Shown: one piece after another, positions 3,291 through 51,774 of the stretch
Numbering within the stretch: the stretch's first letter is position 1
Layout of the letters: each line of letters begins with the position of its first letter
Origin: Lentzea tibetensis
GTDB taxonomy: Bacteria > Actinomycetota > Actinomycetes > Mycobacteriales > Pseudonocardiaceae
Direction of reading: 5' to 3'
Length of the DNA: 51,774 bases
NCBI RefSeq assembly: GCF_007845675.1
Contig: NZ_VOBR01000043.1
Location: forward strand, 1 to 51,774
Made by a program: the position numbers and the translations under genes
The notes under the pieces: model-generated
Database searches by the model: none
What the model saw: only the letters and a program-made list of their open reading frames with translations
Told to the model about the DNA's origin: nothing

Positions 3291-3767
3291 TCAGACGCGA
3301 GTGTTGGTCTGGAACGGGACGCCTTCGTGCGCCGGCCCGAAATCGCCAGTGGTGGCGTACACGTCGATCGAACCGACGTCGTCCATGTGGTCGTGCACGT
3401 ACAGGTGGACGGTCAGCGTCGGCCACGCCTCGCCGGGCACCATGAGCTGCGGGTTGTGGCACTCGATGCCGCCGTCGACGTCCCAGCAGTCCCAGTCGTC
3501 GCCGCTGTAGTCGGCCACCTCGACCGCGTCCGGAACCGACACGAACACGGACACCTCGTCGAGGTTCTCGTCGGCGGCGTCGCTGAGGTCGACCGTGAAG
3601 TAGCCGAACGTGTTAGCCGTCCAGGTGCCTTCGCGGTCCACCCCCATCCCCATCCCGCGGTCGAGGTCGATCGACACCGGTGACGGCTCGTCAGAGGCGT
3701 GGGCGAGCGGTGACGCAGCAAGAGAAAGAGCCGCGGCAGCGCACACGGCAGCAGCAGTCTTGAACAT
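3291..3767 (-). CDS. secreted two-cysteine paralogue 1
   Basis: A 158-residue protein of unknown function, predicted secreted. A Sec-type signal peptide (MFKTAAAVCAAAALSLAASP, cleavage near AHA-SD at about 24) precedes an all-beta-looking domain. The signature is a W-x-C-W-D-V-D-G-G-x-E-C-H block followed by LMVPGEAWPTLTV. The two mature cysteines eight residues apart are suited to a disulfide. The C-terminal half (DVYATTGDFGPAHEGVPFQT) is also shared with the next two genes, so the three arose by tandem duplication. The leader carries a GGGGGAT element before the ATG, as in paralogue 2. I do not recognise a named domain; the arrangement resembles a small secreted beta-sandwich. Confidence 0.85.
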   Translation of the reverse strand: MFKTAAAVCAAAALSLAASPLAHASDEPSPVSIDLDRGMGMGVDREGTWTANTFGYFTVDLSDAADENLDEVSVFVSVPDAVEVADYSGDDWDCWDVDGGIECHNPQLMVPGEAWPTLTVHLYVHDHMDDVGSIDVYATTGDFGPAHEGVPFQTNTRV

Positions 3768-3797
3768 CGAAAATCCCCCAAAGCGAAAAGAATCGGA

Positions 3798-4262
3798 TCA
3801 GACGGTCTGGAACGGCACGCCTTCGTGCGCGGGCCCGTACTCGCCGGTCGTGGCGTACACGTCGATCGAGTCGGGCGCGTCCATCTCGTCGTGCACCCTG
3901 GCGTAGATCAACAGGTCCGGCCACGACTCACCGGGAACCATCAGGCGCGGGTTGTGGCACTCGACGCCGCCGTCGACGTCCCAGCACTCCCACTCGGCGG
4001 AGATGGTGAACAGCTCGATCTCGTCGGGAATCGAGACGAACAGCGTCAGCTCGTCCAGGTTCTCGTCACCGGCGTCGCTGGTGGACACCCTGAAGTAGAA
4101 GTCGTCCTGGTCGGCGATCCAGGTGCCGTCCTCGTCCACCCGGAGCCCGTCGCGGGGTGTCAGCTGGATGGCCACCGGCGACGGCTCGGACGCCTGGGCG
4201 GCTGGTGAGACAGCGAGAGAAAGGGCCGCGGCAGCGCACACGGCGGCGACAACCTTGAACAT
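3798..4262 (-). CDS. secreted two-cysteine paralogue 2
   Basis: This 154-residue secreted protein is clearly paralogous to its downstream neighbour. The signal peptide (MFKVVAAVCAAAALSLAVSP) is nearly identical, and it shares the WECWDVDGGVECHN block, LMVPGESWP and a DVYATTGEYGPAHEGVPFQT tail. The gap to paralogue 1 is only 30 bp, so they are probably cotranscribed. The ribosome-binding sequence GGGGGAT directly before the ATG forms one arm of a perfect 14-bp inverted repeat that separates this gene from paralogue 3, so translation could depend on mRNA folding. Function unknown. Confidence 0.85.
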   Translation of the reverse strand: MFKVVAAVCAAAALSLAVSPAAQASEPSPVAIQLTPRDGLRVDEDGTWIADQDDFYFRVSTSDAGDENLDELTLFVSIPDEIELFTISAEWECWDVDGGVECHNPRLMVPGESWPDLLIYARVHDEMDAPDSIDVYATTGEYGPAHEGVPFQTV

Positions 4263-4266
4263 GGAA

Positions 4267-4321
4267 GATCCCCCAGTGGTCTGAACAACTTACGCCCCAA
4301 GGGACGTACCACTGGGGGATC
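4267..4321 (-). promoter_or_regulatory. 14-bp perfect hairpin containing the SD of paralogue 2
   Basis: GATCCCCCAGTGGT at 4267-4280 is the exact reverse complement of 4308-4321. In the minus-strand RNA the 3' arm holds the GGGGG purine run that would serve as ribosome-binding site for the ATG at 4262. It begins just after the stop codon of paralogue 3 at 4329. It can be read either as a terminator or as an SD-sequestering stem; no U run follows. Confidence 0.6.
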
Positions 4322-4328
4322 GGTTGCG

Positions 4329-4829
4329 TCAGGTGCTGGTGTTCGTCTTGAACGGAACCCTCTCGCCCGCCCAGCCGTACCGGCCGGTGGTCACCCAGAC
4401 CTCGATGGCGCCCGGCTCGTTCATGTGCGAATGAACCTGGTTGCGGACCGTCAGCGTCGGCCACGCCTCACCCGGCACGACCAGGTGCCCGGTGTGGCAC
4501 TCGATGCCGCCTTCAACGTCCCAGCAGTCCCAGCCCTCGCCGCTGAAGCCGGTCACCTCGACCTCGGCGGGGACGAAGACGTAAGCGTCCATCTCGTCCA
4601 GATCACCGTCTCCCTTGTCGGTGACCTTGACCGAGAACTCGGCGGACGACCGGGCCTCCCAGTAGCCGTACGTCTTGTTGATCGCCACACCCTTGCCGGG
4701 CGTGAGCTCGATGGACACCGGAGGTCTCTCACCCGATTCGGCGAAGGACGGTCTTTCGGCCGCGCTCGCCGGTAGTACCGCGACGGCCAGGCAAGCTGCG
4801 GCTGCCAGCACGGCGCTGGTGGTTTTCAC
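4329..4829 (-). CDS. secreted two-cysteine paralogue 3
   Basis: A 166-residue secreted protein, first gene of the three-paralogue run. I chose the GTG at 4829 because AGGAG lies eight bases upstream and it directly begins a signal peptide (KTTSAVLAAAACLAVAVLPA, cleavage near SAA); the frame is open further upstream but without signal-peptide character. It shares the block WDCWDVEGGIECHTGHLVVP, GEAWPTLTV and a GAIEVWVTTGRYGWAGERVP tail. It is more divergent than the other two, with a different signal peptide. Its upstream region runs towards the divergent chorismate mutase leader. Function unknown. Confidence 0.82.
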   Translation of the reverse strand: MKTTSAVLAAAACLAVAVLPASAAERPSFAESGERPPVSIELTPGKGVAINKTYGYWEARSSAEFSVKVTDKGDGDLDEMDAYVFVPAEVEVTGFSGEGWDCWDVEGGIECHTGHLVVPGEAWPTLTVRNQVHSHMNEPGAIEVWVTTGRYGWAGERVPFKTNTST

Positions 4830-4906
4830 GTTGTGTCTCCTGTTGGCCACGTTCTGTAGTTGACATGGACCCCCACGATCTGGTGATCGTATGGCACACT
4901 GTCGAC

Positions 4907-4969
4907 GTGCGCGCGACTCACTTCGAGTTTTTCTACGGGATCCGGACTCCGGCTCCCGTGGTCGCGTAG
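4907..4969 (+). CDS. Phe/Tyr-rich leader peptide of chorismate mutase
   Basis: A 20-codon open frame (GTG start, TAG stop) encodes a peptide containing THFEFFYGIR: three Phe and one Tyr within five residues, far above chance in this GC-rich DNA. Its end overlaps stem 1 of the hairpin set that precedes the chorismate mutase gene. This is what ribosome-mediated attenuation requires: a ribosome stalled for charged tRNA-Phe or tRNA-Tyr would change folding downstream. There is no good ribosome-binding site before the GTG, so a leaderless transcript is likely. TTGACA at 4860-4865 is a possible -35 but has no well-spaced -10. The peptide is too short to be confirmed by homology here. Confidence 0.72.
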   Translation: MRATHFEFFYGIRTPAPVVA

Positions 4970-5019
4970 CGCAGACAAGCCACCACGAAGCCCCGGAGTC
5001 CTCGGACACCGGGGCTTCG
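4935..5019 (+). promoter_or_regulatory. transcription attenuator (pause, antiterminator, terminator)
   Basis: Three competing stems are visible. Stem 1 pairs 4935-4945 with 4949-4959 and covers the end of the leader frame. The terminator-like stem pairs CGAAGCCCCGG (4986-4996) with CCGGGGCTTCG (5009-5019), 11 perfect bp. The alternative stem pairs GGACTCCGG (4944-4952) with CCGGAGTCC (4993-5001), 9 perfect bp, and excludes both others. A ribosome stalled on the Phe/Tyr codons at 4922-4936 would block stem 1 and favour the alternative stem. The terminator stem has no U tract, which is common in actinobacteria but weakens the call. Confidence 0.7.
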
Positions 5020-5062
5020 CTGCTGCCGGGCCAGGACTCGCAGAGTCGAAAGGTTCACCTCC

Positions 5063-5317
5063 ATGAGCACCACCGCGCCGGACATCGACGAGCTGCGCCA
5101 GGAGATCGACCACCTGGACGCCGAGATCCTGCGGCTCGTCGCACGTCGCGTCGAGGTCTCCAAGATCATCGGAGCCACCCGCATCGCCAACGGCGGCACG
5201 AAGATCGTGCACAACCGCGAGATCGACGTGCTGAACCGCTACAAGTCGCTCGGCCCCGAGGGCAAGGACCTCGCGATGATCCTGCTCAAGATGGGTCGCG
5301 GTCCGCTCGGCCGCTAG
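5063..5317 (+). CDS. aroQ: chorismate mutase, AroQ type
   Basis: It converts chorismate to prephenate, the first committed step to Phe and Tyr. The 84-residue all-helical protein has the AroQ pattern: IDELRQEIDHLDAEILRLVA, then RRVEVSKIIG and a later HNREIDVLNRYK. Its size and GxLGR C-terminus match the short actinobacterial subclass (Mycobacterium Rv0948c type), which is known to be activated by binding DAHP synthase. GAAAGG lies about 10 bases before the ATG. The leader peptide and attenuator upstream fit feedback by Phe/Tyr. Its stop codon overlaps the convergent deacetylase stop in a shared CTAG. Confidence 0.93.
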   Translation: MSTTAPDIDELRQEIDHLDAEILRLVARRVEVSKIIGATRIANGGTKIVHNREIDVLNRYKSLGPEGKDLAMILLKMGRGPLGR

Positions 5318-6366
5318 AGGACGCCTGGCCAGTGCGGGCCCACCGCGGCCCGCACCAGGTCGAGATCTCGGTCGACGAGCTGGCTGTCATCCGGGACGTA
5401 GGCGAGCGGGTCGGTCAGCAGCGAGAGCCCGAGCAGCCCCTCGACCAGCGCGTGCAGGCACAGCGCCGAGTACCCGCGCAGGTAACCGCCCTCCTGGGTG
5501 AGCACGACGCGCGTGCCGAACGCCGCGACCCTGCGGCCGATCTCGCGGTAGCCGGCCGCGGTCAGGTTGTGCCGCCCGTTCGGGTCGAACGCCGAGCCGT
5601 CGAACCCGGAGGCGCACACCAGCAGGTCCGGTGCGAACTCCCGCAGCACCGGGAACGCGATCTCGTCCAGCGCGCGCAGGTAGGCGGTGTCCCCCGCCCC
5701 CAGTGACAGCTCGATGTTGACGTTCACGCCCGCGGCGCCTACTTCGGACGGCGCGCCCGTCTGCGGGTGGTTGGGCCCCCACGAGCCGTGCCGCATGTGC
5801 ACGGACACCGTCAGCACGTCCGGCTCGGCGAAGAACACCTCCTGGGTGCCGTTGCCGTGGTGGACGTCCCAGTCCAGCACCGCGACGCGCAGGCCGGACC
5901 GCCGCGCGGTCTCGGCGACGAGCGCGGCGTTGTTCACGAAGCAGTACCCGTCCGCCATGGTCGGCTGCGCGTGATGCCCAGGCGGCCTGACCAGCGCGTA
6001 CGCCAGTGGCGCCCCGGACTCCAGCGCCGCCAGCGCCGTCCCGGCGGCGGCCAGCACCGAACGCCACGTCGACGGCCCGGCGACCGTGTTGACCTCCAGC
6101 GCCACGCGCGAGGACACCCGCAACGTGGACAAGTAGGAAGCGGAGTGCACGCGCAGCAGCTCGTCCAGGACGGCGTGCCTGCCCTCTCGCCACGTCAGGT
6201 GAGGTGCGACGGGCCCGTGGCGCAGCGCGTGGCGGAACGTCCGCAGCCGCGCCGCGTTCTCCGGGTGCGGTTCGAGCACGTCGAGCCACGGCCAGGAACC
6301 GGGGATCTCCCACAGGCCGGCACCCGCGTCGTGCTCCAGGCAGTCGTCATGCCAGAAGATCTCCAC
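5314..6366 (-). CDS. histone deacetylase family amidohydrolase
   Basis: A zinc-dependent deacetylase of the class II HDAC/acetoin-utilisation/acetylpolyamine amidohydrolase superfamily. The 350-residue protein carries RPPGHHAQP (127-135, the His-His charge relay), [26 protein letters not shown] (163-175; Asp and His zinc ligands), [11 protein letters not shown] (the third zinc-binding Asp) and QEGGY near the C-terminus for the catalytic Tyr. The likely substrate is an acetylated lysine or polyamine; it cannot be decided here. I chose the GTG at 6366 because homologues begin close to [10 protein letters not shown] and the residues further upstream are of random composition. It is convergent with chorismate mutase and divergent from a small membrane protein gene. 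Confidence 0.92.
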
Positions 6367-6432
6367 GTTCCCATTAGATATCAGGGGTGTCACCGATGGT
6401 CCCCAGCGGAAAATCGCAGGCACACTGGACGC

Positions 6433-6747
6433 ATGGTCATCGGTCTCATCGCGGCACTCATCGCCATCGTCGGGCTGCTCGCCGCGCTGGCGCACGACGG
6501 ATACCTCGCCATGCTCGGCTCCGCGGCGAAGAACAAGCGCGCCGCGGGCGCACCGATCGCGAACTACGTGCGCAGCCGCTGGACGGTCGCGGGTGTCACC
6601 ACTGCGGGCGCACTTCTCGGGTTGTTGATCACCACGGGTGACAGCACCACCGCGGACGTGCTCGGCGCGCTCATCGCGGGCGGCAGCGGTCTCGCCGCCA
6701 CGCAGGCGCTCCAGACGGAGCGCAAGAAGCTCAACAGCGGAACCTGA
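6433..6747 (+). CDS. small two-helix membrane protein
   Basis: A 104-residue hypothetical membrane protein. The ATG at 6433 opens with a hydrophobic helix ([19 protein letters not shown], residues 2-20), followed by a basic loop and a second helix ([16 protein letters not shown], about 51-66) and a Gly/Ala-rich stretch that may be a third. The C-terminus is charged (QTERKKLN). It starts 66 bp from the divergent deacetylase gene and is separated from the next gene by about 100 bp, so it is probably transcribed alone. I recognise no family. Confidence 0.75.
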
Positions 6748-6851
6748 AAGTTCACACTTACGGGTGTCACTCGTCTTGAAACCACCCTTCCGGTTGGTTC
6801 GACACCGCTGAACGGCCCTACTCTGAGGAGGTCGCAGAGGGGTCTTTCGGA

Positions 6852-7679
6852 ATGGACGAACAGCCGGGCAAACACCGCCTGGACGCGGGGGCGGCGGCCC
6901 CGGTCGCCGGTGGTGGGAACGAAGTGCCGCAGCCGCGCCGCCGTCCGGTCGATCCGCTGTCGGACACCGATGGCCTGCGCAAGTTCAACATCGGCCTCGT
7001 CCCCGCCTCGGTCACGCCGCCGCGCACCTGGAAGCGCGCCGCGTGGTTCGCCGTGCTCTCGTCGGCGGGCGTGCTGATCGGCCTCACGATCGCCGCGGCC
7101 AAGCTCGTCGGCGCGAACGGCCCGGTGGAGCGCATCGGCCTGCCCGGCTACCCGTCGGACATCCCGATCATCACCGGCATCCGGGAGAACAACCCGCCCG
7201 CGTCGACGGCCGGTCAGCGGCCGACGGGCACCCGCGCGCCCGCCTCGGCGCCCGTTCAGGGCACCGGCGGGTCGTCGGCCGCGCCGGACCGCACGGGCGG
7301 TGCGACGGCGCGCCCGACCACCCAGCCGCCGATCGTCACCACGCTGCCCGGCGGCCAGGTGCCCGTCGTGGACGGCGGCAAGATCGCCGAGCGGACCGAG
7401 AAGTTCTACCGGGAGATGGCGACCAACGCGGACACGGCGATGGCGCTGACGACGGACAACTTCAAGGCGAACACCGAGGCGCTGCTGGAGGGCAGGCTCG
7501 CGGACGTGTCGCTGATCGAGGTCAAGGAGATCGCGGTCGACCCGTCGCAGGGCCTGACCGTGAGCCTGCTCCAGGTCACGAAGAAGGACGGCTCGGTCAG
7601 CACCGAGAAGCGCGAGCTCCGGTTCACGCTGACCGACCTGCCGCTCATCAACGGCGAACGTCTCTCGTCCGGCGGCTAA
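6852..7679 (+). CDS. single-pass membrane protein, NTF2-like ectodomain
   Basis: A 275-residue protein of unknown function. A cytoplasmic N-terminus of about 57 residues (basic, Pro-rich) precedes one transmembrane helix (WFAVLSSAGVLIGLTIAAAK, about 64-83), a low-complexity Pro/Thr/Ala linker (about 110-170) and a C-terminal domain of about 100 residues starting KIAERTEKFYREMATNADTA. That domain has the pattern FY-x-x-[LM] ... VTKKDGS, which resembles the extracellular tails of the neighbouring protein at 7842 and of the kinase at 11215. A role as a cell-surface partner or sensor of the same pathway is inference. The start is supported by GAGGAGG and AGGGG upstream. Confidence 0.72.
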   Translation: MDEQPGKHRLDAGAAAPVAGGGNEVPQPRRRPVDPLSDTDGLRKFNIGLVPASVTPPRTWKRAAWFAVLSSAGVLIGLTIAAAKLVGANGPVERIGLPGYPSDIPIITGIRENNPPASTAGQRPTGTRAPASAPVQGTGGSSAAPDRTGGATARPTTQPPIVTTLPGGQVPVVDGGKIAERTEKFYREMATNADTAMALTTDNFKANTEALLEGRLADVSLIEVKEIAVDPSQGLTVSLLQVTKKDGSVSTEKRELRFTLTDLPLINGERLSSGG

Positions 7680-7841
7680 AGGTCAGCACCGCATCAACCG
7701 ACAGTAGTTATCGACACCATCAGGCGATGTTGAGCGACCGCTGACCGCCACGAACGACTGAAGTCCGCCAACGAGCTGGCGTTGACGCGTGAGGTCACGG
7801 TACGTCTTCTGGTGACCACGAAGAGTACGGAGGCCAGGCCA

Positions 7842-8636
7842 GTGCAGCGTCCCGCGACGACCGGCAGGCGGCACACCCGCGCCGGATCGATCAGCGTGGC
7901 TGAGCTCATCAAGCAGCAGCCGACCCCGATCCGCATCCCCACCCCGGACGAGGCCGCGACCGAGACGCTGGTCCTCGACCTGCTCGGCCCGCGCGAGCCG
8001 GAGAACAACCGCCGTCGCCGCAAGTCGAGCGGCCGGGCAGCCAAGGCGGCCGGCCTGATCACCGGCGGCGTCGTGCTGTTCGCGTCGGTCGCCGCCGCCG
8101 CGATCCTGGCGGGCAACCGCCCGGTGAACACCGGCGTCCCGCACACCGAGCGCCCGGTCGCGCTGTCCGGCGCGAGCGCGCTGCGTCCGGACGTCCTCGC
8201 CGCGAAGCTGCCAGGTGACCACCAGCAGTCGCTGCCGACCAGTCAGCTGCCGCCACCCCCGGCGCTGGTCATGGAGCCGTCGGCCGCGCCGGCCACGGAC
8301 ATCTCCGCACCGCTGGTCTCCACCGGCCCGCAGCCGCAGATCGACGTGGTGCGCCGGTTCTACGAGCTGCTCACCACCGCGCCCGCGTCGGCGACGAAGC
8401 TGCTGTCGCCCGACCTGGTCGGCGCGGACCCCGAGGAGTTCGTCCGGTCCTGGGGCATGATCCAGGCCGTCAACGTGGACCAGACGGTCCTCCGGCAGGA
8501 CGGCTCGGTGCTCGCCGTGGTGTCCATGCAGGAGCGCGACGGGAGCTGGCTGAGGCTCGAGCAGCTCTTCTGGCTGACTGACACATCGACACCGCGCATC
8601 ATCGGCACCGAGGTCCTTTCAGCCCAGCGCAGCTGA
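7842..8636 (+). CDS. single-pass membrane protein with SVAELI motif and NTF2-like tail
   Basis: A 264-residue protein. GTG at 7842 is chosen over upstream starts because GGAGG (7829-7833) lies eight bases away. The cytoplasmic part contains SISVAELIKQQPTPIR, a motif repeated in the next gene; a basic NNRRRRKSS stretch then leads into one membrane helix (AGLITGGVVLFASVAAAAIL). After a Pro/Ser-rich linker the C-terminus (IDVVRRFYELLTTAPASATK ... EEFVRSWGMI ... LRLEQLFWL) looks like a small NTF2-like domain similar to those of the nearby kinases. Function unknown; location next to Ser/Thr kinases suggests it is a target or co-sensor. Confidence 0.78.
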   Translation: MQRPATTGRRHTRAGSISVAELIKQQPTPIRIPTPDEAATETLVLDLLGPREPENNRRRRKSSGRAAKAAGLITGGVVLFASVAAAAILAGNRPVNTGVPHTERPVALSGASALRPDVLAAKLPGDHQQSLPTSQLPPPPALVMEPSAAPATDISAPLVSTGPQPQIDVVRRFYELLTTAPASATKLLSPDLVGADPEEFVRSWGMIQAVNVDQTVLRQDGSVLAVVSMQERDGSWLRLEQLFWLTDTSTPRIIGTEVLSAQRS

Positions 8637-41856: not shown

Positions 41857-43380
41857 ATGACTCATGTGACGCGACGCGCACTGATCATCGGCGGACTGGC
41901 GCTCACCGCGGTGGGTGCGGGATCACCGAAGCTCGCTGATCCCTTCACGCTGGGGGTCGCTTCCGGCGACCCGACCTTCGACGGCGTCCTCCTGTGGACG
42001 CGCCTGGCACCCACCCCTCTCGCCGAGGACGGACTGGGCGGCATGCCGTCCCGTGCGATCGAGGTCCGGTGGGAGATCGCACTCGACGAGCGCTTCCGCC
42101 GGGTCGTCCGGCGCGGCACCGCATGGGCCCGGCCCGAGCTCGGGCACAGCGTGCACGTGGACGTCCGCGGCCTGCGGCCCGGCGCCGAGTACTTCTACCG
42201 CTTCTCCGCCGACGGGCACGTCTCGCGCGTCGGCCGCACCAGGACCTCGCCAGCGCCGTGGGCTCTCGGCGGTGCGCTGACCATGGCGTTCGCGTCTTGC
42301 TCGCAGTTCGAGCACGGCTACTTCACCGCGTACAAGCGGCTGGCCGAGGACGAGCCGGACCTCGTCCTGCACCTCGGCGACTACCAGTACGAGTACAAGA
42401 AGGGCTCCTACGTCGCGCCCGGCGGCAACCCGCGCGACCACGAGGGGCCGGAGACCGAGACGCTCGCCAACTACCGGCAGCGGCACGCCCAGTACAAGAC
42501 CGACGCCGACCTCCAGGAAGCGCACGCCGTGGCGCCGTGGTCGGTCGTGTGGGACGACCACGAGATCGACAACAACTGGGCGGACGAGGTCTACGAGAAG
42601 CCGGAGATCCCGCAGCCGAACTTCCTGGCGCGCCGGGCGGCGGCCTTCCAGGCGTACTACGAGAACATGCCGATCCGGCGGCGTCCGGACGGCATCGACC
42701 TGAAGCTGCACCGGCGGGTGGAGTGGGGCAGGCTCGCCACGTTCCACATGCTCGACACCCGGCAGTACCGCGACGACCAGGCGTGCGGCGACGGGCTCAA
42801 GACGTGTCCCGAGCGACTGAACCCGACCCGGTCGATCACCGGTGCGGCGCAGGAGAAGTGGCTGCTCGACGGGTTCCGCTCCTCGTGCGCGCGCTGGGAC
42901 GTGCTGGGGCAGCAGGTGTTCTTCTCGCAGCTGGACTTCATGGCCGGTGCGGGCGAGCGCAACAACATGGACGCGTGGGACGGGTACGCGGCCAACCGCG
43001 ACCGCGTGGCGGCGGGCTTCTCCTCGGTGCGCAACGCCGTCGTGCTCACCGGTGACGTGCACGCCGCGTGGGGTGCGGACGTCAAGGCGCGCTGGGACGA
43101 CCCTGCGTCGAAGACCGTCGGCACCGAACTCGTGTCCACGTCGATCACCTCGGGTGGTGACGGGTCGGAGGAACGTCCGGAGACCGCGGCGATCCTGGCC
43201 GAGAACCCGCACGTGAAGTACTTCAACAACCGGCGCGGGTACGTGCGGACGCGGTTCACGTCGCGTGAGGTGCGCGCCGACTTCCGGGGTCTGGACTACG
43301 TGTCGCGGCCCGGCGCGCCGGTCTCGACCAAGGCGTCGTTCGTGATCGAGGACCGGCGGCCGGGGCTGCACCGCGTCTAG
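41857..43380 (+). CDS. secreted PhoD-type alkaline phosphatase 2
   Basis: A 507-residue paralogue of the gene before it, similar over its whole length. Tat-like start (VTRRALIIGGLALTAV), PFTLGVASGDPTFDGVLLWT, FASCSQFEHGYFTAYKRLAE, VLHLGDYQYEYKKG, WDDHEIDNNWADEVYEKPEI (a three- to five-residue insertion relative to copy 1) and VLTGDVHAAWGADV. It begins 45 bp after copy 1 with no visible promoter, so both are probably expressed together. Catalytic residues are kept in both, so the duplication is not obviously decaying. Confidence 0.93.
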   Translation: MTHVTRRALIIGGLALTAVGAGSPKLADPFTLGVASGDPTFDGVLLWTRLAPTPLAEDGLGGMPSRAIEVRWEIALDERFRRVVRRGTAWARPELGHSVHVDVRGLRPGAEYFYRFSADGHVSRVGRTRTSPAPWALGGALTMAFASCSQFEHGYFTAYKRLAEDEPDLVLHLGDYQYEYKKGSYVAPGGNPRDHEGPETETLANYRQRHAQYKTDADLQEAHAVAPWSVVWDDHEIDNNWADEVYEKPEIPQPNFLARRAAAFQAYYENMPIRRRPDGIDLKLHRRVEWGRLATFHMLDTRQYRDDQACGDGLKTCPERLNPTRSITGAAQEKWLLDGFRSSCARWDVLGQQVFFSQLDFMAGAGERNNMDAWDGYAANRDRVAAGFSSVRNAVVLTGDVHAAWGADVKARWDDPASKTVGTELVSTSITSGGDGSEERPETAAILAENPHVKYFNNRRGYVRTRFTSREVRADFRGLDYVSRPGAPVSTKASFVIEDRRPGLHRV

Positions 43381-44555
43381 GGAGCGGCGAGCGCTTCTGT
43401 GGGCGCCAGACGGGATGCGCGCACGGCCGGGTACACACCCGCGAGCACGCCGACCAGCAGGGCCGCGCCGATGCCGGTGAACACCGCGTTCAGCGGGATC
43501 ACCGTCGGCCAGTCCCGCCACGCGGCGTACCCGGCCGTGCCGAGCACCCCGAGCACGGCGCCCGCGAGGCCGCCGAGCAGGCACAGCGCGACGGACTCGG
43601 TGAGGAACTGCCACCGGATGTGGCCGCGGTTCGCGCCGAGTGCCCTGCGCAGGCCGATCTCGCGCTTGCGTTCCAGCACCGAGATCACCATCGTGTTGGC
43701 CACGCCGACGCCGCCGACCAGCAGCGCGACCCCGGCGAGCCCGAGGAACAGCGCGGAGAACGTGTTCTCGGTGAGGCGTTTCGCGGCGAGCGCGTCGGAC
43801 GGCCTGCTGACCCTGATCTCGCCGGGACTCTCCGGGAAGACCGTGGCGGGCAGCACGGCCCGGACGTCCTCGATCGCCGTCTCGTCGACCTTCACGTAGA
43901 TCACCGTGGGGTGGCCGGAGAACCCGAGCTGACGGCGCGCGGACTCCCAGCCGATCAGCACCGAGCGTTCGACGTCCGGCGCGAGCGGCATGGCTTCGAG
44001 GATGCCGACGACGGTGAACCAGCTCTTGCCGACCCAGACCTGCGGGGCGGGCGCGCCGGGCGTGAGCGAGGTGATGCCGAGCCGGGTCGCGGCCTTGTCG
44101 CCGAGCACGACCGTGGGAAACGCGCTGTTGGCAGCGTTGAGGAAGGTGCCGGAGTGGACTCGGCCGTTCAACGCCTCCAGCAGGTTCGGCTTGGCGACCA
44201 GCACGCTCAGCCCGGAGTTCTCCTCGACGCGGTCGGTGCGGCTGACGAACGTCTGCGCGTTGGCGAGCGCACTCGCCATGTGCACAGGACCGATCCGGTC
44301 GGCCATCTCCGCGGAGTTCTCCGGCACCGGCGGCAGCTGCCCGGTCGTGCTGTCCGGGGCGACCTCGGCGCGCAACAGGTTCGTGCCGAGCGCGGACAGC
44401 TCGTTCATCAGCTGCCGGTGGCTCGATGCCGGGATGCCGACGACGACGATCAACGTGGCGATGCCGATGGAGATGCCGAGTGCGGACAGCACCGCGCGCA
44501 TCGGCCGGGTGCGCAGGCCCAGCAGGCCCGTTTGCAGCAGGTCGACCAGGTTCAC
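43377..44555 (-). CDS. MacB/FtsX-type ABC permease
   Basis: A 392-residue permease with four predicted membrane helices: one N-terminal, then a large periplasmic domain (about 45-270, MacB_PCD; contains TETV-like loops and [20 protein letters not shown]), and three C-terminal. FtsX-like motif [20 protein letters not shown] (with the coupling helix contact [13 protein letters not shown]) lies near 295. It forms a mechanotransmission exporter with the ATPase encoded just upstream; the adaptor of the same operon is HlyD-like. I chose GTG 44555, which overlaps the ATPase stop by four bases. No Gram-negative outer-membrane partner is expected. Confidence 0.92.
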
Positions 44556-45214
44556 TCGGACACCCGCCCATCCCGCATGTGCACGCAGCGAGGCAGCGTC
44601 GCGGCGATCTCCCGGTCGTGGGTGATGATCGCGATGGTGGTGCCTGCGCGGTTGAGGTCGCGCAGCAGTTGCAGCACCGCATGGCCGTTCGCGGTGTCGA
44701 GCGCGCCGGTCGGTTCGTCGGCGAGAACGAGCTTCGGGCTGTTCACCAACGCCCTGGCGATCGCGACACGTTGCTTCTCGCCACCGGAGAGCTCGTGCGG
44801 CCGGTGGTCCCTGCGGTGCGCGAGACCGACCCTGGTCAGCGCTTGGACCGCGAGCGCCGCGCGCCACTTGCGCGCGACGCCCGCGTAGAGGAGGCCGGTG
44901 GCCACGTTCTGGGTCGCGGTGAGACCGTCGGTGAGGTGGAACTGCTGGAAGACGAACCCGAGCGTGCGGCCGCGCATCGTGGACAACGCCTTGTCGGACA
45001 TGGACATCACGTCCTGGCCTGCGACCCGCACGGTGCCGCTGGTCGGCCGGTCGAGCGTGCCCATCAGGTTGAGCAGCGTCGACTTGCCGGACCCGGACGG
45101 ACCGACGATGCCGATCAGCTCACCCTCCTCGATCGTCAGCGAGACGCCGGCCAGCGCCTGCACACCGCCGGGATAGGACTTCACCGCGTCGCGGATCTCC
45201 AGCACCGGGGTCAC
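44552..45214 (-). CDS. MacB-type ABC transporter ATPase
   Basis: A 220-residue ATPase. Walker [13 protein letters not shown] (near 38), Q-loop [14 protein letters not shown], signature [15 protein letters not shown], Walker [13 protein letters not shown] and the switch His in IITHDREIA. It energises the permease encoded next; both ends show 4-bp overlaps (ATGA/GTGA type), so the operon is translationally coupled. Confidence 0.95.
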
Positions 45215-46212
45215 GAGGTCGTCACCACTTCCATGCCCTCGGTCAAGCCGTCGCCGGTGACCTCGACCATGCCGTTCGAGAACAGCCCGGTGGTCACGGC
45301 GAGGAAGCCGCCTTCCTCGCGTTGCAAGGCGTAGCCGCCTTCCTTCAACGCGACCAGCGCGCCGACCGGCACCGCGAGCACACCGGTCTTGGTCTCGCTC
45401 GCCACCTTCACCTTGACCGGACCGGACATCAGTCCGCCCGCGTCAGCGAGTGCGACGGTGGCGACGACCTTCGGTTTGTCGTTCTTGTTGCCTTCGGCGC
45501 TGCTCGCGGACGTGCCGACGGACGTGACGGTGCCCTTGGCCTGCTTGCCGTCCGGCAGCTCCACGGACACCTCCGTGCCCTGCTTCAGCGCGTCCGTCTG
45601 GTCGGCGGGCACGTCCACGGTCACCGCGCGGTCGGCGCCGGTCAACGACATCAGCTCGCCTTCGGCTTTGCCGCCTAACGAGATCTTCGCCGACTCGACC
45701 CTGACCTTGCCCGGCAGCACCACGACGTCACCCGGCTCGATGTGACCGGTCTCCGGCAGCTTGTTCGTCTTCTGCCAGCGCTTGAGCGCCGCGGCCGTGA
45801 CGGAGCCGTACTCGTCACCGTTCAGCCCCAGGTTGGCGTTCACCACCTCGGCGTCCGGTCCACGCGTACCCGGCGTTTCCAGCTTGCGGAACAGCGGGGT
45901 CTCACCTGCGAACAGAAGCACCGGCCGATCGTCCACCTTGTACAGCGGCTGGCCGGGCTCGATCACCGCACCCGCGGCGGGCAGCCAGGTGACGGTGCCG
46001 GGCTTGCGACCGGTCAACGTGGTGGCGGGGCCGTAGCCGAGGCTGCCCTGGAACTGCGCGGTGTTCATGAGGTCGGTCTTGGTGACCTCGACCGTCGTGG
46101 CCTGCTGCGGACCGGTGGCCGCGGGCGCGGCCCGCGGGCGGTTCGACCACGCGAAGCCGATTCCGCCGAGCAGTGCCACGACCGCGACGCCGGTGATGAC
46201 CCACTTCTTCAC
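45211..46212 (-). CDS. HlyD/MacA-like adaptor with peptidoglycan-binding-like segment
   Basis: A 333-residue membrane-anchored protein. One N-terminal helix ([20 protein letters not shown]) is followed by the adaptor pattern: barrel-sandwich piece ([20 protein letters not shown]), an insertion with [20 protein letters not shown] (a peptidoglycan-binding-domain-like helix set) and a C-terminal membrane-proximal domain ([20 protein letters not shown]). In Gram-positive exporters of this class the adaptor links the ABC permease to an outside substrate. Overlaps the ATPase start by four bases. Substrate unknown, but the two Cys-rich lipoproteins just upstream are probably part of the machine. Confidence 0.9.
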
Positions 46213-46736
46213 TTCCGCAGACTCTCTTTCTCACACCGCTGGGTGAGCTCCATGCCCTCGAGCGTGCCGATGTGCGAGTTGTCGCCCACGTACGCCCAGC
46301 TGTTCTGCTGCTCACCGGGACCCGCTGGACGCTCCTCAGCCTTCGCTCCGGCCGCGCGCAGACACTCGACGACGCGGTGGATGAAGTCGAGCGACTCCGG
46401 GTTGGACTTGTCGTACTCCCACGGAGGCAGGAGGTAGAGGTGCTCGCACTTGGCGAACGCGATCGGCTGGAGGCGCTTGTACTCCTCGGCCGGCATCGCC
46501 GCGGCTTCTTCCTTGGTGTCCGGCATGCCGTTGGCGGACATGCAGTCGCCGTACGGCTTGGAGCGCGCCCTGGCCTGCTCCGGGGTGTCGTCGATGCGCG
46601 CACGCTGCTGCTCGGGCTGCGCCGCGCCGGTGGCCGTCGTGCCGCTCGTCTGCAACGAGGCGACCTGAGGAGTGCTGTTCTCCGCGGTTCCGCACGCGGT
46701 CAGCACGAAGACCGCGGCGATGATCAACCTTTTCAC
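46209..46736 (-). CDS. lipoprotein 1 with four-cysteine module
   Basis: A 175-residue lipoprotein: lipobox LTAC with Cys15, a Thr/Gln-rich linker (about 20-50), then a module with four cysteines at 65, 97, 125 and 168 (DCMSANG; KCEHLY; RVVECLRAAG; RCEKES). It is a paralogue of the next gene and its module matches the sensor kinase ectodomain encoded upstream in the operon. Start GTG 46736 is set by the signal peptide and by GTGA overlap with the paralogue stop. Probably tethered outside the membrane; a substrate-binding role is inference. Confidence 0.85.
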   Translation of the reverse strand: MKRLIIAAVFVLTACGTAENSTPQVASLQTSGTTATGAAQPEQQRARIDDTPEQARARSKPYGDCMSANGMPDTKEEAAAMPAEEYKRLQPIAFAKCEHLYLLPPWEYDKSNPESLDFIHRVVECLRAAGAKAEERPAGPGEQQNSWAYVGDNSHIGTLEGMELTQRCEKESLRK

Positions 46737-47275
46737 TTGTTCAGGCTCTCCTTCTCGCACCGGGAAGAGAGCTCCATGCCTTTGCCCTCAGCGAACTGCG
46801 GGTTCTCACCGACGAACTTGTAGCCGTTGAAGTCGACGCCGGGAGCAGCCGGAATCTCCTCGACCTTGGCGCCCGCCGCACGCATGCACTCGACCACGCG
46901 GTGGATGAAGTCCATGGACTCCGGGTTGTTCCTGTCGAACTCCCACGCCCGCAACGGGAAGAAGTGCTTGCACTTCTCCCACGCGATCGGCTGGATGCGC
47001 TTGTACTCCTCGCTGGACATCGCCGCGGCTTCCGCTTTGCCGAACGGCACACCGTTGGCCTTCATGCAGTCGCGGTACGGCTTGGAACGCGCCTGCGCCT
47101 GCTCCGGGGTGTCGTCGATGCGCTCGCGTGGCTGTTCGGAGGACGGCGGGGCAGCCGAGGTGGCGCCCGAATCCGAGCCCGAGGTCTGCAGGGAGGCGAC
47201 TTCGGGGGTTGCTCGTTCCGCCGACCCGCACGCGCTGAGCGCGAGGGCCGCGGCCATGCACAGGATTAGTCGCAT
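46733..47275 (-). CDS. lipoprotein 2 with four-cysteine module
   Basis: A 180-residue lipoprotein (lipobox LSAC, Cys16; signal peptide RLILCMAAALAL). The module cysteines are at 70, 102, 130 and 173 with spacings 31, 27 and 42 (RDCMKANGVPFG; KCKHFF; RVVECMRAAG; RCEKESLNK). It is about 60 per cent like lipoprotein 1 by eye in the module, so duplicated. It starts 43 bp after the sensor kinase stop and overlaps lipoprotein 1 by four bases. The CMxxNG segment resembles the CM-[RK]-[EA]-NG motif of exporter-linked actinobacterial lipoproteins. Confidence 0.86.
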   Translation of the reverse strand: MRLILCMAAALALSACGSAERATPEVASLQTSGSDSGATSAAPPSSEQPRERIDDTPEQAQARSKPYRDCMKANGVPFGKAEAAAMSSEEYKRIQPIAWEKCKHFFPLRAWEFDRNNPESMDFIHRVVECMRAAGAKVEEIPAAPGVDFNGYKFVGENPQFAEGKGMELSSRCEKESLNK

Positions 47276-47318
47276 GCCCCAAAGGCTCTGCGGAACTTGT
47301 CAAGAACTCGTGTGATCC

Positions 47319-49019
47319 CTATGCGGGTAGCTTCAGAGTGAACGTCGTGCCCGCGCCGAGCCTGCTGCGGACCTCGACGGTGCCGCCGTGCAGCTCCACG
47401 AGGTTGCGCACGATGGCGAGGCCGAGCCCGGAACCGCCGGTCTGCCTGCTGCGCGACGAGTCCGCGCGCCAGAACCGGTCGAACACGTGCGGCAGGTCCT
47501 CCTCCGCGATGCCGGTGCCGGTGTCGGCGACCTCGATGACCACCTGGCCGTTGCGCCGCTCCCCGCTGACGACGACCTCGTTCTCGCTGTGCCGCAAGGC
47601 GTTCGTGACCAGGTTGCCGACGACCTGGCGCAACCGCACCGGATCGGCGTCGAGGTCGAGCTGCGGTGCACGGCGCACCGTCACGCGGTCGTGGCCGGCG
47701 AACTGGTCCAGCACGTCGGCGGCGTTGATCTGCTCGCGGTGCAGCTGCAGCTGGTCGGCGTCCGCCAACGCGAGTTGCTGCAGGTCGTCGACGAGGTGTT
47801 GCAGCAGAAGGGTTTCCTCCAGCAGCGAGCCCACCAGCTCCTGGTCCAGGTCGGCCACGCCGTCCTGGGTGGCGATGAGCCAGCCGCGGATGTTGCCGAC
47901 CGGCGTGCGCAGCTCGTGCGAGACGTCGCTGATCATCGCCTTGCGCTGGCGTTCGGTGCGGTCGAGGTGCTCGGCCATCTCGTTGAACGCGTCGGCGACC
48001 TCGCCGATCTCGCCTCGCGCCTTGGTGCGCACACGTGCCTGCGTGTCGCCCGCGCGCATCTGCTTCGCCGCACCGGTGAGCGCCTTGAGCGGTTCGACGA
48101 GCCTGGTCGCGACGAGGAAGCTGACCAGCACGGTCAGCAGCAGCACAGCCAGTGCGGCGAGCACGATCGGCGTGGTGCCCGCCCTGGTGAGGCCGATCTC
48201 GGGAGCGCCGTCGTCGTTGCTGACGAACAACAACGCGGACGGCGCGGCGTACTGGTCGAGCTGCTGGCGGCGGCTCTCCAGCAGGCACTTCTCCGCCTTC
48301 TCGCCGCCCTGCGACTTGGGGCTGAGCACCGGCACCCCGGCCGCGTTGACCAGCAGCGGCGGCTCTTTGAGCGCGCAGGTGGCGAAGATGCGCTGGAGGT
48401 CGGCCAGTGCGGCGCTCTCGGTGTCCACAGGGGTGACGATCGTGCCGGCGGTGATCTCACCGCACCGCGACGGCGTCGACCCGGTCTGCCGCCCCGGCGT
48501 CTCCACCAGCCAGCGCCTGCTGGGCGTCTCGACCAGCACCGCGCCGATGCCGTTGGTGGCCAGGCAGTCCCGGCGCAGCTCCGCGGACTTCTTCAGCGCC
48601 TCCGACTCCGCGTCGCTCAGCCGGAACGGCCCGGCGAGCCGGTCGTCGATCGGACCTCCCGGCCGCAGCGCCGGGTCGACGTTCAGCGGGTCGATGCGCG
48701 CGGATGCCTTCAGCGGCAACGGATCCAGCCGGTATCCAGCGACGTGCACGCGGCTGTCGGAGGTGAGTGTGATGCGCCTGCCGGTCTTGCGGGTGAGCTC
48801 CGCGATGACCTCTTCGGTCTTCGCGTCCCAGATCGGCCTGGTGCCCGCGTGGTCCAGCAGCACGTCGTAGATCTCCTGGTCGGACGCGATCGCCTGGCCC
48901 TGCTGCTGGCGGATCGCGCCCGAGGTGCCCTGCACCACGAGCCACGCCGTCGCGGCGATCGAGCACACCGCGACCAAAACCGAGCTGACCAGCAGCCGGA
49001 CCAGCAGACTCGACCTCAT
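47319..49019 (-). CDS. sensor histidine kinase with four-cysteine ectodomain
   Basis: A 566-residue HK: helix 1 (8-30), large outer domain (31-282), helix 2 (283-305), HAMP (about 306-355), HisKA (SDVSHELRTPVGN, His368) and HATPase (NALRHSENEVVV, VADTGTGIAEEDL, GSGLGLAIVRN). The ectodomain has Cys152, Cys186, Cys215 and Cys245 with spacings 33, 28 and 29, beginning RRDCLATNG, close to RDCMKANG of the lipoproteins encoded downstream. Start ATG 49019 overlaps the regulator stop (ATGA). It presumably controls the exporter-lipoprotein operon. Confidence 0.94.
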   Translation of the reverse strand: MRSSLLVRLLVSSVLVAVCSIAATAWLVVQGTSGAIRQQQGQAIASDQEIYDVLLDHAGTRPIWDAKTEEVIAELTRKTGRRITLTSDSRVHVAGYRLDPLPLKASARIDPLNVDPALRPGGPIDDRLAGPFRLSDAESEALKKSAELRRDCLATNGIGAVLVETPSRRWLVETPGRQTGSTPSRCGEITAGTIVTPVDTESAALADLQRIFATCALKEPPLLVNAAGVPVLSPKSQGGEKAEKCLLESRRQQLDQYAAPSALLFVSNDDGAPEIGLTRAGTTPIVLAALAVLLLTVLVSFLVATRLVEPLKALTGAAKQMRAGDTQARVRTKARGEIGEVADAFNEMAEHLDRTERQRKAMISDVSHELRTPVGNIRGWLIATQDGVADLDQELVGSLLEETLLLQHLVDDLQQLALADADQLQLHREQINAADVLDQFAGHDRVTVRRAPQLDLDADPVRLRQVVGNLVTNALRHSENEVVVSGERRNGQVVIEVADTGTGIAEEDLPHVFDRFWRADSSRSRQTGGSGLGLAIVRNLVELHGGTVEVRSRLGAGTTFTLKLPA

Positions 49020-49699
49020 CGGGACCCGTTGGTGACCTTGTAGCCCACTCCGTAGACCGTGACCAGGTAGACGGGTTTGCGCGGCGTCTGCTCGATCTTC
49101 TTGCGCAGGTTCATCACATGCACGTCGACCGTGCGTTCGGTGATGAACCCGTCGATGCCGCGCGCCTGCTCGAGCAGCTGCCCCCTGGTGAACACCCGGT
49201 CCGGACTGGCGGCGAGGGTGGCGAGGATCTTGAACTCGACCGGCGTGCAGTCGATCCGCTTCGACCCGACGTGCACCTCGTGCCGCATCGGGTCGATCTT
49301 GATGGCGCCGACCTGGATGGCCTGGCTGGTGGTTCTCCGGCTCCGCTGGAGGATCGCCCGGACCCGCGCCATCAGCTCGCGCGGGTCGTACGGCTTGGTG
49401 ACGTAGTCGTCCGCGCCGAGGTCGAAGCCCAGCAACAGGTCGTCGGCCGTGCTCCTGGCCGTGAGCATGAGGACCGGGACGTCGCTCTCCCTGCGCAGGA
49501 TCCGGCACACGTCCAGACCGTCAACACCGGGCATCATCACGTCGAGGACCAGCAGGTCAGGCCGGGCGCTGCGCACCTCGTCGATGGCGGATCTGCCGTC
49601 GTGGACGACCTTCACGTCGTGACCTTCGCGGTCGAGGTACCGCTTGATCAGCTCCGCGTTCTTGTGGTCGTCGTCGGCCACCAGCACGTAGGCGCACAC
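49016..49699 (-). CDS. OmpR-type response regulator
   Basis: A 227-residue winged-helix regulator. Receiver: DDDHKNAELIKRY, phosphoacceptor in LLVLDVMMPGVDG (about 53), Thr in MLTARS and Lys in YVTKPYDPREL. The output domain carries IKIDPMRHEVHVGSKRIDCT, PVEFKILATLAASPDRVFTR and the recognition helix ERTVDVHVMNLRKKIE. Start GTG 49699 (CAYVLVADDD) is taken as the first codon giving the receiver beta-1 strand; no clear ribosome-binding site is seen. Heads the seven-gene run. Confidence 0.94.
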   Translation of the reverse strand: MCAYVLVADDDHKNAELIKRYLDREGHDVKVVHDGRSAIDEVRSARPDLLVLDVMMPGVDGLDVCRILRRESDVPVLMLTARSTADDLLLGFDLGADDYVTKPYDPRELMARVRAILQRSRRTTSQAIQVGAIKIDPMRHEVHVGSKRIDCTPVEFKILATLAASPDRVFTRGQLLEQARGIDGFITERTVDVHVMNLRKKIEQTPRKPVYLVTVYGVGYKVTNGSR

Positions 49700-49933: not shown

Positions 49934-50290
49934 TCAGCCCGCGTACGTCTTGTCTTCCGTGAGATTTCCGTCCTTGTCCCACCGTTGGCGGCGAGCACGC
50001 CTGCCGTTCTCATTGAAGACCGTGTGCTCAGCGAGCTGCCCGTTCGGATGCCACGCTCGCCAGTCACCGACGGCAAGTCCCCAGTCGACTTGCCCTTCCT
50101 TCTTGTTCGAGCCGTCCGCATACCACTGCCCTTGCGGTCCGTGCGGAACACCTTCGAAATAGGTGACCAACCCGACGATGCGCCCCTCAGCATCACGAGT
50201 GATGACCTCACCCGTGAAGAGCTCATCTTCATGGAGAACACGCATGGTGTCATCCATGTACGAGTCCTGCTTCTCAATACGCATTTTCAT
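49934..50290 (-). CDS. YwqK-like putative immunity protein
   Basis: A 118-residue protein made of MORN/YwqK-type beta-hairpin repeats (ELFTGEVITRDAEGRIVGLV, GVPHGPQGQWYADGSN, GDWRAWHPNGQLAEHTVFN, GRRARRQRWDKDGNLTE). Such proteins are known as antitoxin/immunity partners of polymorphic toxins. Its start overlaps the toxin stop (ATGA at 50287-50290), so it is coupled to it. It is most likely the cognate immunity protein. Confidence 0.83.
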   Translation of the reverse strand: MKMRIEKQDSYMDDTMRVLHEDELFTGEVITRDAEGRIVGLVTYFEGVPHGPQGQWYADGSNKKEGQVDWGLAVGDWRAWHPNGQLAEHTVFNENGRRARRQRWDKDGNLTEDKTYAG

Positions 50291-51774
50291 TCCGTCACTG
50301 GAGGTTCGAGCGTGGCATTTCGCCGGTGATCACCCGGCGGGAAGTGATAGCGACCGCTGTAGCTCGGCACATCTCTCAGTATACTGTTGCAGTTTCCGCA
50401 GGCGGGAGCTTCACCGCCGAGTTCGCGGACGACATTGCCCTTCTTGACCACTTCGTCGGTCCACCGCGGGTCGAACCGCATTTCGTCCAGCACCTCACGG
50501 CTGAGCGGAGGCGGTACTGAATCCGCGCCGTGCTGCTTGCGCCATGCGTCCTCGAAGGCACGTTGACGTTCCCAGAGAAGCTCGTTGACCGCCTTGACCT
50601 CGGCGTGCCGCATGGGATCGTCGAAATGCGCCCTACCGTCGAGAACGGCGTCCTTCGTGATCACCTTGCCCTCGGCGTCCTTGAGCGCCTTGCCGTTCTC
50701 ACCTAGCACGGGCATCTGGGCAGCGTCGGTTTCGGACCGCATGATCGGGTGTTTCCACTCGGCCATGTCCATGTAGTTGTCACGCAGGAGCGGGTGCAGG
50801 TTCTCCGGCTCGATCAGGTCGTCGGCCTGACCATTGACGCCCTCGGTGATCAGGCCGGTCTTGCGGTCGATCGCGACAGCCGAGCAGGGGCCGTCGCCTG
50901 ATTCCATGTTCGGGGCGTGCTGACTGACCGCCCGACTCTTCGAGAGGTCCTGCACGTATTCCTTGACCGGCTTCCCATCGATGGTTTCGATCAGGCCGTT
51001 CTTGGTCGTGACCCTCGAGGTGTCGGTCGGATCGATCTGCTCGACGATCGCTCCACGACTCTTGTCCCGTTCGAACTCGGGATCCCTGGTGTCGGGCGCT
51101 CGGCCAGGGTCCTCCGCATCCGGGAAGTGCGGAGGATCGTCCACACGCTCGTCTCCGGCCGACAGCGGCTTGGGACGCTCCTCGGGTTCCTCGTCCCCTT
51201 TCGACCCCGTGTCCTCGCCGCGGTCTTTGGCGTCGGCGCCGTCGGTGTTCTTGTCGCTGCCGGGTGCGTAGCCGTCGTCGCTGGCTTTGGTTTTGCTGCC
51301 GTCGGGGTGGTGGGTTTCCCATTCGCCGTTGGGCGGGATCTTCGGCTGCCTGGTGCCGTCGGGAGTGATGTCGACGTCGCTGGTGAAGACGCGGCCGTTG
51401 GCGTCGGTCCAGGCGGGTTTGGTGGGCGCCACGACGGGGGCGTCGAGGTGTCTGGACAGTTGTTGGGCGAAGTCGTTGCTGGCGGCGTCGCAGCCGATGA
51501 GGCGGACGGGTTTGCTGCCGTCGTAGCCGGAGCGGCGGAGCATGTCGGCGTATTCGGCGGGGGTGTAGTCGTGGCCGCCGATGCGGGCTCTGCCGTCGGG
51601 GGTGATGTGGACGTCGGCGGTGAAGAAGCGCGGGTCGTTGGGGACGCGGTGCGGGAGGTCGCCCATGTCGGGGTCGCCGCCGTGGTGGCTGACGCCGGCC
51701 GGGGTGGGTTCGGCGTGCCGGGCGTGGGCCTCGGCGGGGTCCGGGCGCGGCTCGTCGGCGTGGGTGTGGGGGGT
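50287..51774 (-). CDS. polymorphic toxin C-terminal part, deaminase-like (5' end outside window)
   Basis: The frame is open to the window edge, so the N-terminus is missing; 495 codons with no stop are visible. It shows two related segments (FFTADVHITPDGRARIGG and VFTSDVDITPDGTRQ) flanking VRLIGCDAASNDFAQQLSRH, then an acidic linker and a C-terminal domain of about 240 residues. That domain has PCSAVAIDRKTGLITEGVNG, the HAE of MRHAEVKAVNELL and ACGNCNSIL (CxxC), the zinc-ligand pattern of the cytidine-deaminase fold, as in YwqJ-type toxins. A coupled YwqK-like immunity gene follows. The first domains resemble the repeat-rich carriers of actinobacterial secreted toxins. Confidence 0.78.
   Translation of the reverse strand, partial: TPHTHADEPRPDPAEAHARHAEPTPAGVSHHGGDPDMGDLPHRVPNDPRFFTADVHITPDGRARIGGHDYTPAEYADMLRRSGYDGSKPVRLIGCDAASNDFAQQLSRHLDAPVVAPTKPAWTDANGRVFTSDVDITPDGTRQPKIPPNGEWETHHPDGSKTKASDDGYAPGSDKNTDGADAKDRGEDTGSKGDEEPEERPKPLSAGDERVDDPPHFPDAEDPGRAPDTRDPEFERDKSRGAIVEQIDPTDTSRVTTKNGLIETIDGKPVKEYVQDLSKSRAVSQHAPNMESGDGPCSAVAIDRKTGLITEGVNGQADDLIEPENLHPLLRDNYMDMAEWKHPIMRSETDAAQMPVLGENGKALKDAEGKVITKDAVLDGRAHFDDPMRHAEVKAVNELLWERQRAFEDAWRKQHGADSVPPPLSREVLDEMRFDPRWTDEVVKKGNVVRELGGEAPACGNCNSILRDVPSYSGRYHFPPGDHRRNATLEPPVTE

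Follow-up and report, generated by a model that had tools for sequence, protein, structure and literature searches.

Evidence for a two-unit cysteine-repeat domain common to a sensor kinase and lipoproteins in a MacAB-like operon of Lentzea tibetensis

Can the ectodomain of a sensor kinase and the lipoproteins encoded next to it in an exporter operon be built from the same domain, and what would such a kinship say about what the operon recognizes? The question is raised by a locus of Lentzea tibetensis in the window analysed here, namely the whole stretch of 51,774 nucleotides of contig NZ_VOBR01000043.1 (contig C48 of the 9.36-Mb genome). A first-pass annotation of this DNA had described a set of genes in which a kinase and two lipoproteins share a four-cysteine module, and had supposed that all three bind the same ligand.

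The operon and its gene products

Seven genes are arranged on the minus strand in the order response regulator (RR), histidine kinase (HK), lipoproteins LP1 and LP2, adaptor, ATPase and permease, with a GTG start assumed for several of them. Five of the six junctions are 4-bp overlaps, the exception being the gap of 43 bp between HK and LP1, and the one-strand, mostly overlapping layout of the first-pass annotation is thereby confirmed, as are the gene roles it assigned, which agree with the Pfam and NCBIfam matches and with the lipoboxes. The OmpR-type regulator (49016..49699, minus strand, GTG start assumed; Response_reg and Trans_reg_C) overlaps by 4 bp the kinase of 566 aa (47319..49019, minus strand), which has an ectodomain of ~260 aa followed by HAMP, HisKA and HATPase_c domains. 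Together they form an OmpR/BaeS-type two-component system, the HAMP, HisKA, HATPase_c, receiver and winged-helix domains all exceeding their Pfam cut-offs. The exporter is MacAB-like, with ATPase and permease encoded separately and HlyD_3, ABC_tran, FtsX and MacB_PCD over cut-off. It consists of a MacA/YknX-like adaptor (45211..46212, minus strand; HlyD_3 at 27.7 bits versus a cut-off of 22.2, and a weak PG_binding_1 match at 20.6 versus 23), an ABC ATPase of the MacB/LolD group (44552..45214, minus strand; ABC_tran, with MacB as best NCBIfam model, below its cut-off) and a MacB-like permease (43377..44555, minus strand; FtsX and MacB_PCD). Neither protein reaches the NCBIfam equivalog for MacB proper (ATPase 240.5 bits and permease 97.3 bits, versus a cut-off of 966).

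The lipoproteins LP1 (180 aa; 46733..47275, minus strand) and LP2 (175 aa; 46209..46736, minus strand, GTG start assumed) are 64% identical, and each has a lipobox (LSAC and LTAC) and four further cysteines with gaps of 31-27-42, counted after the lipid cysteine. No Pfam family matched either of them, and their NCBIfam matches are weak (best E 0.005, 16.4 bits versus 70), most of them starting at the signal peptide; 42 mature lipoproteins compared with the curated families gave one stray match in Pfam (E 0.0028) and one in NCBIfam (E 0.0076). Nine of the 14 named lipoprotein relatives are from Lentzea.

The AlphaFold model of the HK ectodomain (pLDDT 86.5, pTM 0.80) shows a PDC-like fold between the transmembrane helices, suggesting a PDC/PAS extracytoplasmic sensor that carries the four-cysteine module as an insertion (48246..48638, minus strand; HK residues about 128-258). 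The module's cysteines (152, 186, 215 and 245) are spaced 33-28-29, so that both spacings given in the first-pass annotation, for the kinase and for the lipoproteins, are correct. With an ectodomain of about 260 aa, HK does not belong to the Bce type, in which the kinase has no extracytoplasmic sensor domain. A Venus-flytrap domain of the BvgS type is likewise absent, the ectodomain having zero Pfam matches at E 0.01; across the family, one of 59 members has a Pfam match, to a DUF only. The module itself reaches no Pfam or NCBIfam cut-off.

Cysteine repeats and their kinship

In both proteins the module is, judging from profile comparisons, a tandem C..C repeat of two units. The profiles of lipoprotein units 1 and 2 match each other with E 3e-15 over 63 columns and those of the kinase units with E 1e-5 over 34 columns. 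The resulting domain occupies approximately 46742..47113 (minus strand) in LP1, where the model has a pLDDT of 88.2, and approximately 46218..46589 (minus strand) in LP2, as placed by alignment to LP1. In the divergent kinase L288 there is only one unit, and it holds one C..C pair. This, together with the two-unit repeat, suggests that the disulfide pairs would be C1-C2 and C3-C4, one per unit. The four cysteines are the conserved feature of the kinase module, along with a C(L/M)RxxG motif in many members: of 130 kinase ectodomains with a full-length match to the profile, 129 have exactly four, and the remaining one has a fifth in the apparent second transmembrane helix. The further resemblances pointed out earlier, an RRDCLATNG opening and a C-x-x-ES ending, are local, both being absent from the two paralogues of the kinase encoded in this genome.

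Such conservation could also speak for a sensor of redox or disulfide status, like CutS of Streptomyces, the lipoproteins then being separate, structurally stabilized relatives. This is the main rival explanation for the cysteines, and it draws on the 129 ectodomains just mentioned and on CutS itself, where, in the sections of the report available, two conserved extracellular cysteines are described whose joint replacement by serine makes the kinase constitutively active (PMC12802291). Those sections name two cysteines and neither an exporter nor a lipoprotein partner (PMC12802291). The lipoproteins, which have no kinase output, also keep the four cysteines, which favours structure over a redox switch, and the similarity of the repeats exceeds the cysteines. 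Redox sensing is accordingly rated as unlikely, and structural disulfides are the most likely role of the conserved cysteines.

Whether kinase module and lipoproteins are homologous could not be settled by the evidence of the first-pass annotation: BLASTP of HK against LP1 aligns 26 aa with E 0.036 (the same stretch in LP2, E 0.26), and hhalign, given profiles built from the window's own family, yields a non-significant 3.3-4.8%, the matched part being CLRxxG. Profiles were therefore compared at the level of the class, built from 129 kinase modules and 82 lipoproteins of the family and class genomes and bounded by 18 residues before C1 and 12 after C4. They align with a probability of 67% (E 5.2e-5), and, once reduced to match columns, with 82% (E 1.1e-5, score 33.8) over 109 columns with the four cysteines in register. 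None of 200 nulls with the lipoprotein columns shuffled between fixed cysteines reached this score (mean 8.8, maximum 15.9), nor did any of 200 with columns rotated between fixed cysteines (mean 13.7, maximum 24.1); the reversed profile scored 7.7 and segments reversed in place 8.2. With the cysteines masked in both profiles the match is weaker and still in register (22.0; null maximum 13.5, 0 of 100), so that similarity extends beyond the cysteines. A subset of 34 lipoproteins, of a kind with CMRxxG-MPDP repeats, gave 60% and a score of 29.5, equalled in 0 of 200 shuffles; with cysteines masked, it retained 22 columns, out of register (17.8, null maximum 12.2). When residues were compared at fixed offsets from the cysteines, these excluded, in 40 operons, the zero register was the best of 13 shifts (-41.8 versus -51.0 to -67.7).

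Searches with single models point the same way. Run on 9,941 ORFs, of which 82 match the lipoprotein profile, the kinase-module HMM placed lipoprotein-profile ORFs at eight of the ten and 36 of the 50 best non-kinase positions, the best with E 2.2e-5 over model positions 5-122; the other two in the top ten are long lipoproteins of the family f21. The ORFs come from loci chosen around these genes, which enriches the lipoproteins, and the other ORFs still outnumber them by ~100:1. In the reverse search, 99 of 139 kinase ORFs were scored by the lipoprotein HMM, 15 of them ranking among the first 25 (best E 0.0029), and the CMRxxG-MPDP subset brought nine kinase ORFs into the top 25. Comparisons of single units are weaker (kinase unit 1 with lipoprotein unit 1, 21%, and with unit 2, 47%; kinase unit 2 with lipoprotein unit 1, 6%, and with unit 2, 27%). 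When lipoprotein HMMs were applied to seven divergent kinases that had not been used for training, most runs ranked L290 and L291 at the top of 57 ORFs, at non-significant values (best E 1.5).

The structure predictions, compared by the order of their elements, agree in part: a helix-hairpin-helix order is common to unit 2 of the HK and LP1 models, and unit 1 has a beta hairpin in the kinase and none in LP1. Homology of the kinase module and the lipoproteins through a two-unit domain is supported by the controlled profile comparisons and fits the succession of secondary-structure elements in the second unit of the two models. The central claim of the first-pass annotation thus holds, on the strength of class-wide profiles with controls rather than of pairwise or family-level comparison.

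Distribution, pairing and co-variation

The same genome contains two further operons (C28 and C56), each with a regulator, a four-cysteine kinase, one lipoprotein, adaptor, ATPase and permease, and a fourth (C16) with a distant lipoprotein of the CMRxxG-MPDP kind and a divergent kinase whose 38-aa ectodomain is free of cysteine. In the family sample of 200 genomes the lipoprotein profile is found in 46 and the kinase ectodomain in 64; in the class sample of 296 genomes the numbers are 74 and 45, respectively. Pairing in the 200 family genomes was counted over 83 lipoprotein places and 97 kinase places, with split matches joined and eight weak partial ones dropped, which leaves 61 kinase genomes. 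Among lipoproteins termed strong (E below 1e-19; four operons enter twice, having two lipoproteins each), 40 of 47 lie within 8 kb of a four-cysteine kinase, as against one of 36 weak ones, and the kinase is present in every one of the 31 genomes that have a strong lipoprotein. The pairing is therefore not accidental. Seen from the kinases, 36 of 97 have a strong lipoprotein within 8 kb and 61 have none, and 22 of the 61 kinase genomes are without any lipoprotein match.

Among 135 kinase loci, 43 have lipoprotein and exporter (18 on the same strand, 25 on the opposite strand), 11 an exporter without a profile-detected lipoprotein and two a lipoprotein without adaptor; the remaining 79 have kinase and regulator only, with neither lipoprotein nor exporter in the fetched stretch, some stretches stopping at contig ends. 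In eight of the 11 exporter loci the gap holds a lipoprotein ORF of 385-448 aa with a CMxxxG motif (f21), and the four of these long lipoproteins that were fully read all have four cysteines after the lipid cysteine. In the other three (L096, L100 and L108), which have the exporter and no lipoprotein, a fused lipoprotein-adaptor was considered and rejected, since the extra N-terminal frame overlies the regulator gene. An all-versus-all comparison of neighbouring ORFs at 55 orphan kinase loci found no neighbour in more than nine loci, save the regulator, the kinase and apparent shadow frames. On a tree of 130 kinases, linkage, scored as lipoprotein profile plus adaptor with the f21 loci treated as not linked, takes 19 changes, no fewer than 10 of which are forced, versus 35 in shuffles. 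The 79 loci and the 22 genomes without a lipoprotein match imply that the module works without the lipoprotein.

Nine of the 36 weak lipoprotein places, which are of the CMRxxG-MPDP kind, were read (C16 of the L. tibetensis genome and eight retrieved loci), and in all nine the adjoining kinase has a cysteine-free ectodomain of 38-66 aa. Two kinds of lipoprotein thus accompany two kinds of kinase, and lipoprotein and exporter occur together in these nine loci even though the kinase differs.

Co-variation was measured in 31 non-redundant operons. Mean distances are largest for the module (0.70) and the lipoprotein (0.65), followed by the PDC part (0.57), adaptor (0.54) and kinase core (0.42); greater variation of module and lipoprotein is as expected of binding parts. 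The raw correlations of lipoprotein distances do not single out the module (0.63), which is not above the kinase core (0.65), with adaptor (0.62), PDC part (0.58) and regulator (0.54) behind. In partial Mantel tests, which are prone to false positives, lipoprotein and module remain correlated when kinase core, adaptor and regulator are controlled for (r 0.25, p 0.001) and when the PDC part is controlled for as well (r 0.23, p 0.002). Given the module, the lipoprotein does not correlate with the PDC part (r 0.04, p 0.30), and its correlation with the adaptor, the rest being fixed, is weak (0.13, p 0.04). The excess of kinase-lipoprotein similarity within operons over that across operons is not significant (p 0.105).

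These observations bear on two other explanations. The lipoprotein might be a partner subunit of the kinase, the homologous units pairing with each other and the lipoprotein repressing or activating the kinase according to ligand, like accessory proteins elsewhere. The co-variation with the module is compatible with this, and so is gene order, the lipoprotein following directly after the kinase in 15 of the 18 same-strand loci and in a sixteenth (L011) where a long adaptor frame obscures it. Given the kinase genomes without any lipoprotein match, and the nine loci in which the short kinase ectodomain offers nothing homologous to pair with, a partnership of this kind is nevertheless improbable. 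Alternatively, the module could be a docking domain: by mimicking the lipoprotein, the kinase would bind to the adaptor or the permease and so monitor how the exporter is working. This variant of Bce-type flux sensing, in which kinases depend on their own transporter according to the portion of the review at hand (PMC8534201), fits the constancy of lipoprotein and exporter in the nine loci with a different kinase. It is hard to reconcile with the 79 kinase loci without such an exporter, a count that covers the fetched stretch around each kinase, and is regarded as very unlikely.

Proposed working and known systems

The reading preferred here, with a probability of about one half, is that of a ligand-responsive envelope export operon in which the repeat unit, common to kinase and lipoproteins, binds an extracytoplasmic compound. 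As the sensor ectodomain carries a relative of the lipoproteins adjoining the exporter, sensor and exporter may recognize the same substance, and a ligand common to kinase and lipoproteins is plausible. The C..C unit would be a binding domain for a compound threatening membrane or wall, with a peptide antibiotic or a product secreted by the cell as the most likely candidates. The kinase would detect this compound with the domain copy in its ectodomain and, via the regulator, turn the operon on. The lipoproteins would use their copies at the membrane to capture or retain this compound or one related to it, supplying or shielding the MacA/MacB-like exporter. A wider, tentative proposal, against which the odds are judged to lie, is that a widespread actinobacterial class of MacB-type exporters has the repeat domain (C(L/M)RxxG ... 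C units) as its receptor. Its older form would combine a lipoprotein with a kinase nearly devoid of ectodomain, and in a derived branch a copy inserted in a PDC sensor would have replaced transporter- or lipoprotein-dependent sensing by direct sensing of the same ligands, many such kinases later leaving the exporter.

The finding connects unclassified extracellular sensor modules with unclassified exporter-associated lipoproteins. If the ligands are shared, the lipoproteins would offer small soluble handles for identifying what many orphan kinases of antibiotic-producing genera bind, and the operons would mark the cargo of their exporters. A literature search, mostly of freely accessible papers, found no description of such a sensor-lipoprotein homology.

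Among known systems, MtrAB-LpqB resembles the operon in that a lipoprotein gene adjoins an actinobacterial two-component system, the difference being that LP1 and LP2 match no Pfam family; LpqB is not known to be homologous to the MtrB sensor. CutS is likewise an actinobacterial kinase with conserved extracellular cysteines, but its two cysteines are the sole conserved feature, and a lipoprotein relative is not mentioned in the text available (PMC12802291). The claim that no described system has this homology stands insofar as no curated family was reached, and has to be qualified in that sensors sharing a domain with binding proteins are known: BvgS/EvgS kinases contain Venus-flytrap domains, shared with transport-associated binding proteins, as stated in the part of the review consulted (PMC8534201). 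The likeness is one of principle, since the architecture differs here: the sensor is modelled as PDC/PAS with a C..C repeat module inserted, the transporter is an exporter instead of an importer, and there is a lipoprotein partner.

The exporter has its counterparts in YknWXYZ and Spr0693-0695, which also consist of adaptor, ATPase and MacB-type permease, but the operon described here also includes a four-cysteine lipoprotein and a kinase that carries a homologous module. According to the portions of the reports at hand, MacB-like pumps of Gram-positives protect against peptides, YknX binds peptidoglycan and YknXYZ protects against a toxic peptide (PMC5985334), and Spr0693-0695 is a MacB-family pump of Gram-positives (PMC5768738). 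In nisin immunity, NisRK, NisI and NisFEG provide kinase, regulator, ligand-binding lipoprotein and ABC exporter, all answering one peptide (PMC10257480), which is the same set of sensor kinase, regulator, lipoprotein and ABC exporter; homology between NisK and NisI is not stated in the portion of that source available (PMC10257480), and the present exporter is of a MacA/MacB-like type that includes an adaptor. By analogy, lantibiotic immunity of this kind and the peptide-protecting MacB pumps appear to be the systems closest in working to the operon of L. tibetensis.

Long lipoproteins at eight kinase loci

At eight kinase loci with an exporter from the sampled genomes (L262, L265-L270 and L272), a lipoprotein ORF of 385-448 aa carrying a CMxxxG motif lies between regulator and adaptor. 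These ORFs, which the profile of the four-Cys lipoproteins does not match, form a branch of long members within the lipoprotein family.

Kinase ectodomain variants

ORF 2 of locus L288 encodes a related kinase whose ectodomain holds one C..C unit, versus two in the usual module. The fourth exporter operon of the Lentzea tibetensis genome (L013, G000:C16:138000-153000, positions 3421-8609) includes a lipoprotein of the CMRxxG-MPDP kind; its regulator and kinase genes are divergent from the exporter operon, and the kinase ectodomain is Cys-free and 38 aa long.

Genes flanking the operon

A PhoD-like phosphatase gene (window 41857-43380, plus strand) is convergent with the MacB-like permease gene, overlapping its end by 4 bp. 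Upstream of the operon, and like it on the minus strand, the gene of a protein with a C-terminal YwqJ-like deaminase domain (50287-51666, E 4.5e-6) is followed by that of a small protein (49934-50290) with MORN/RHS repeat matches below the cut-off, which is possibly its partner. YwqJ-like deaminase domains are of a kind known from polymorphic toxins.
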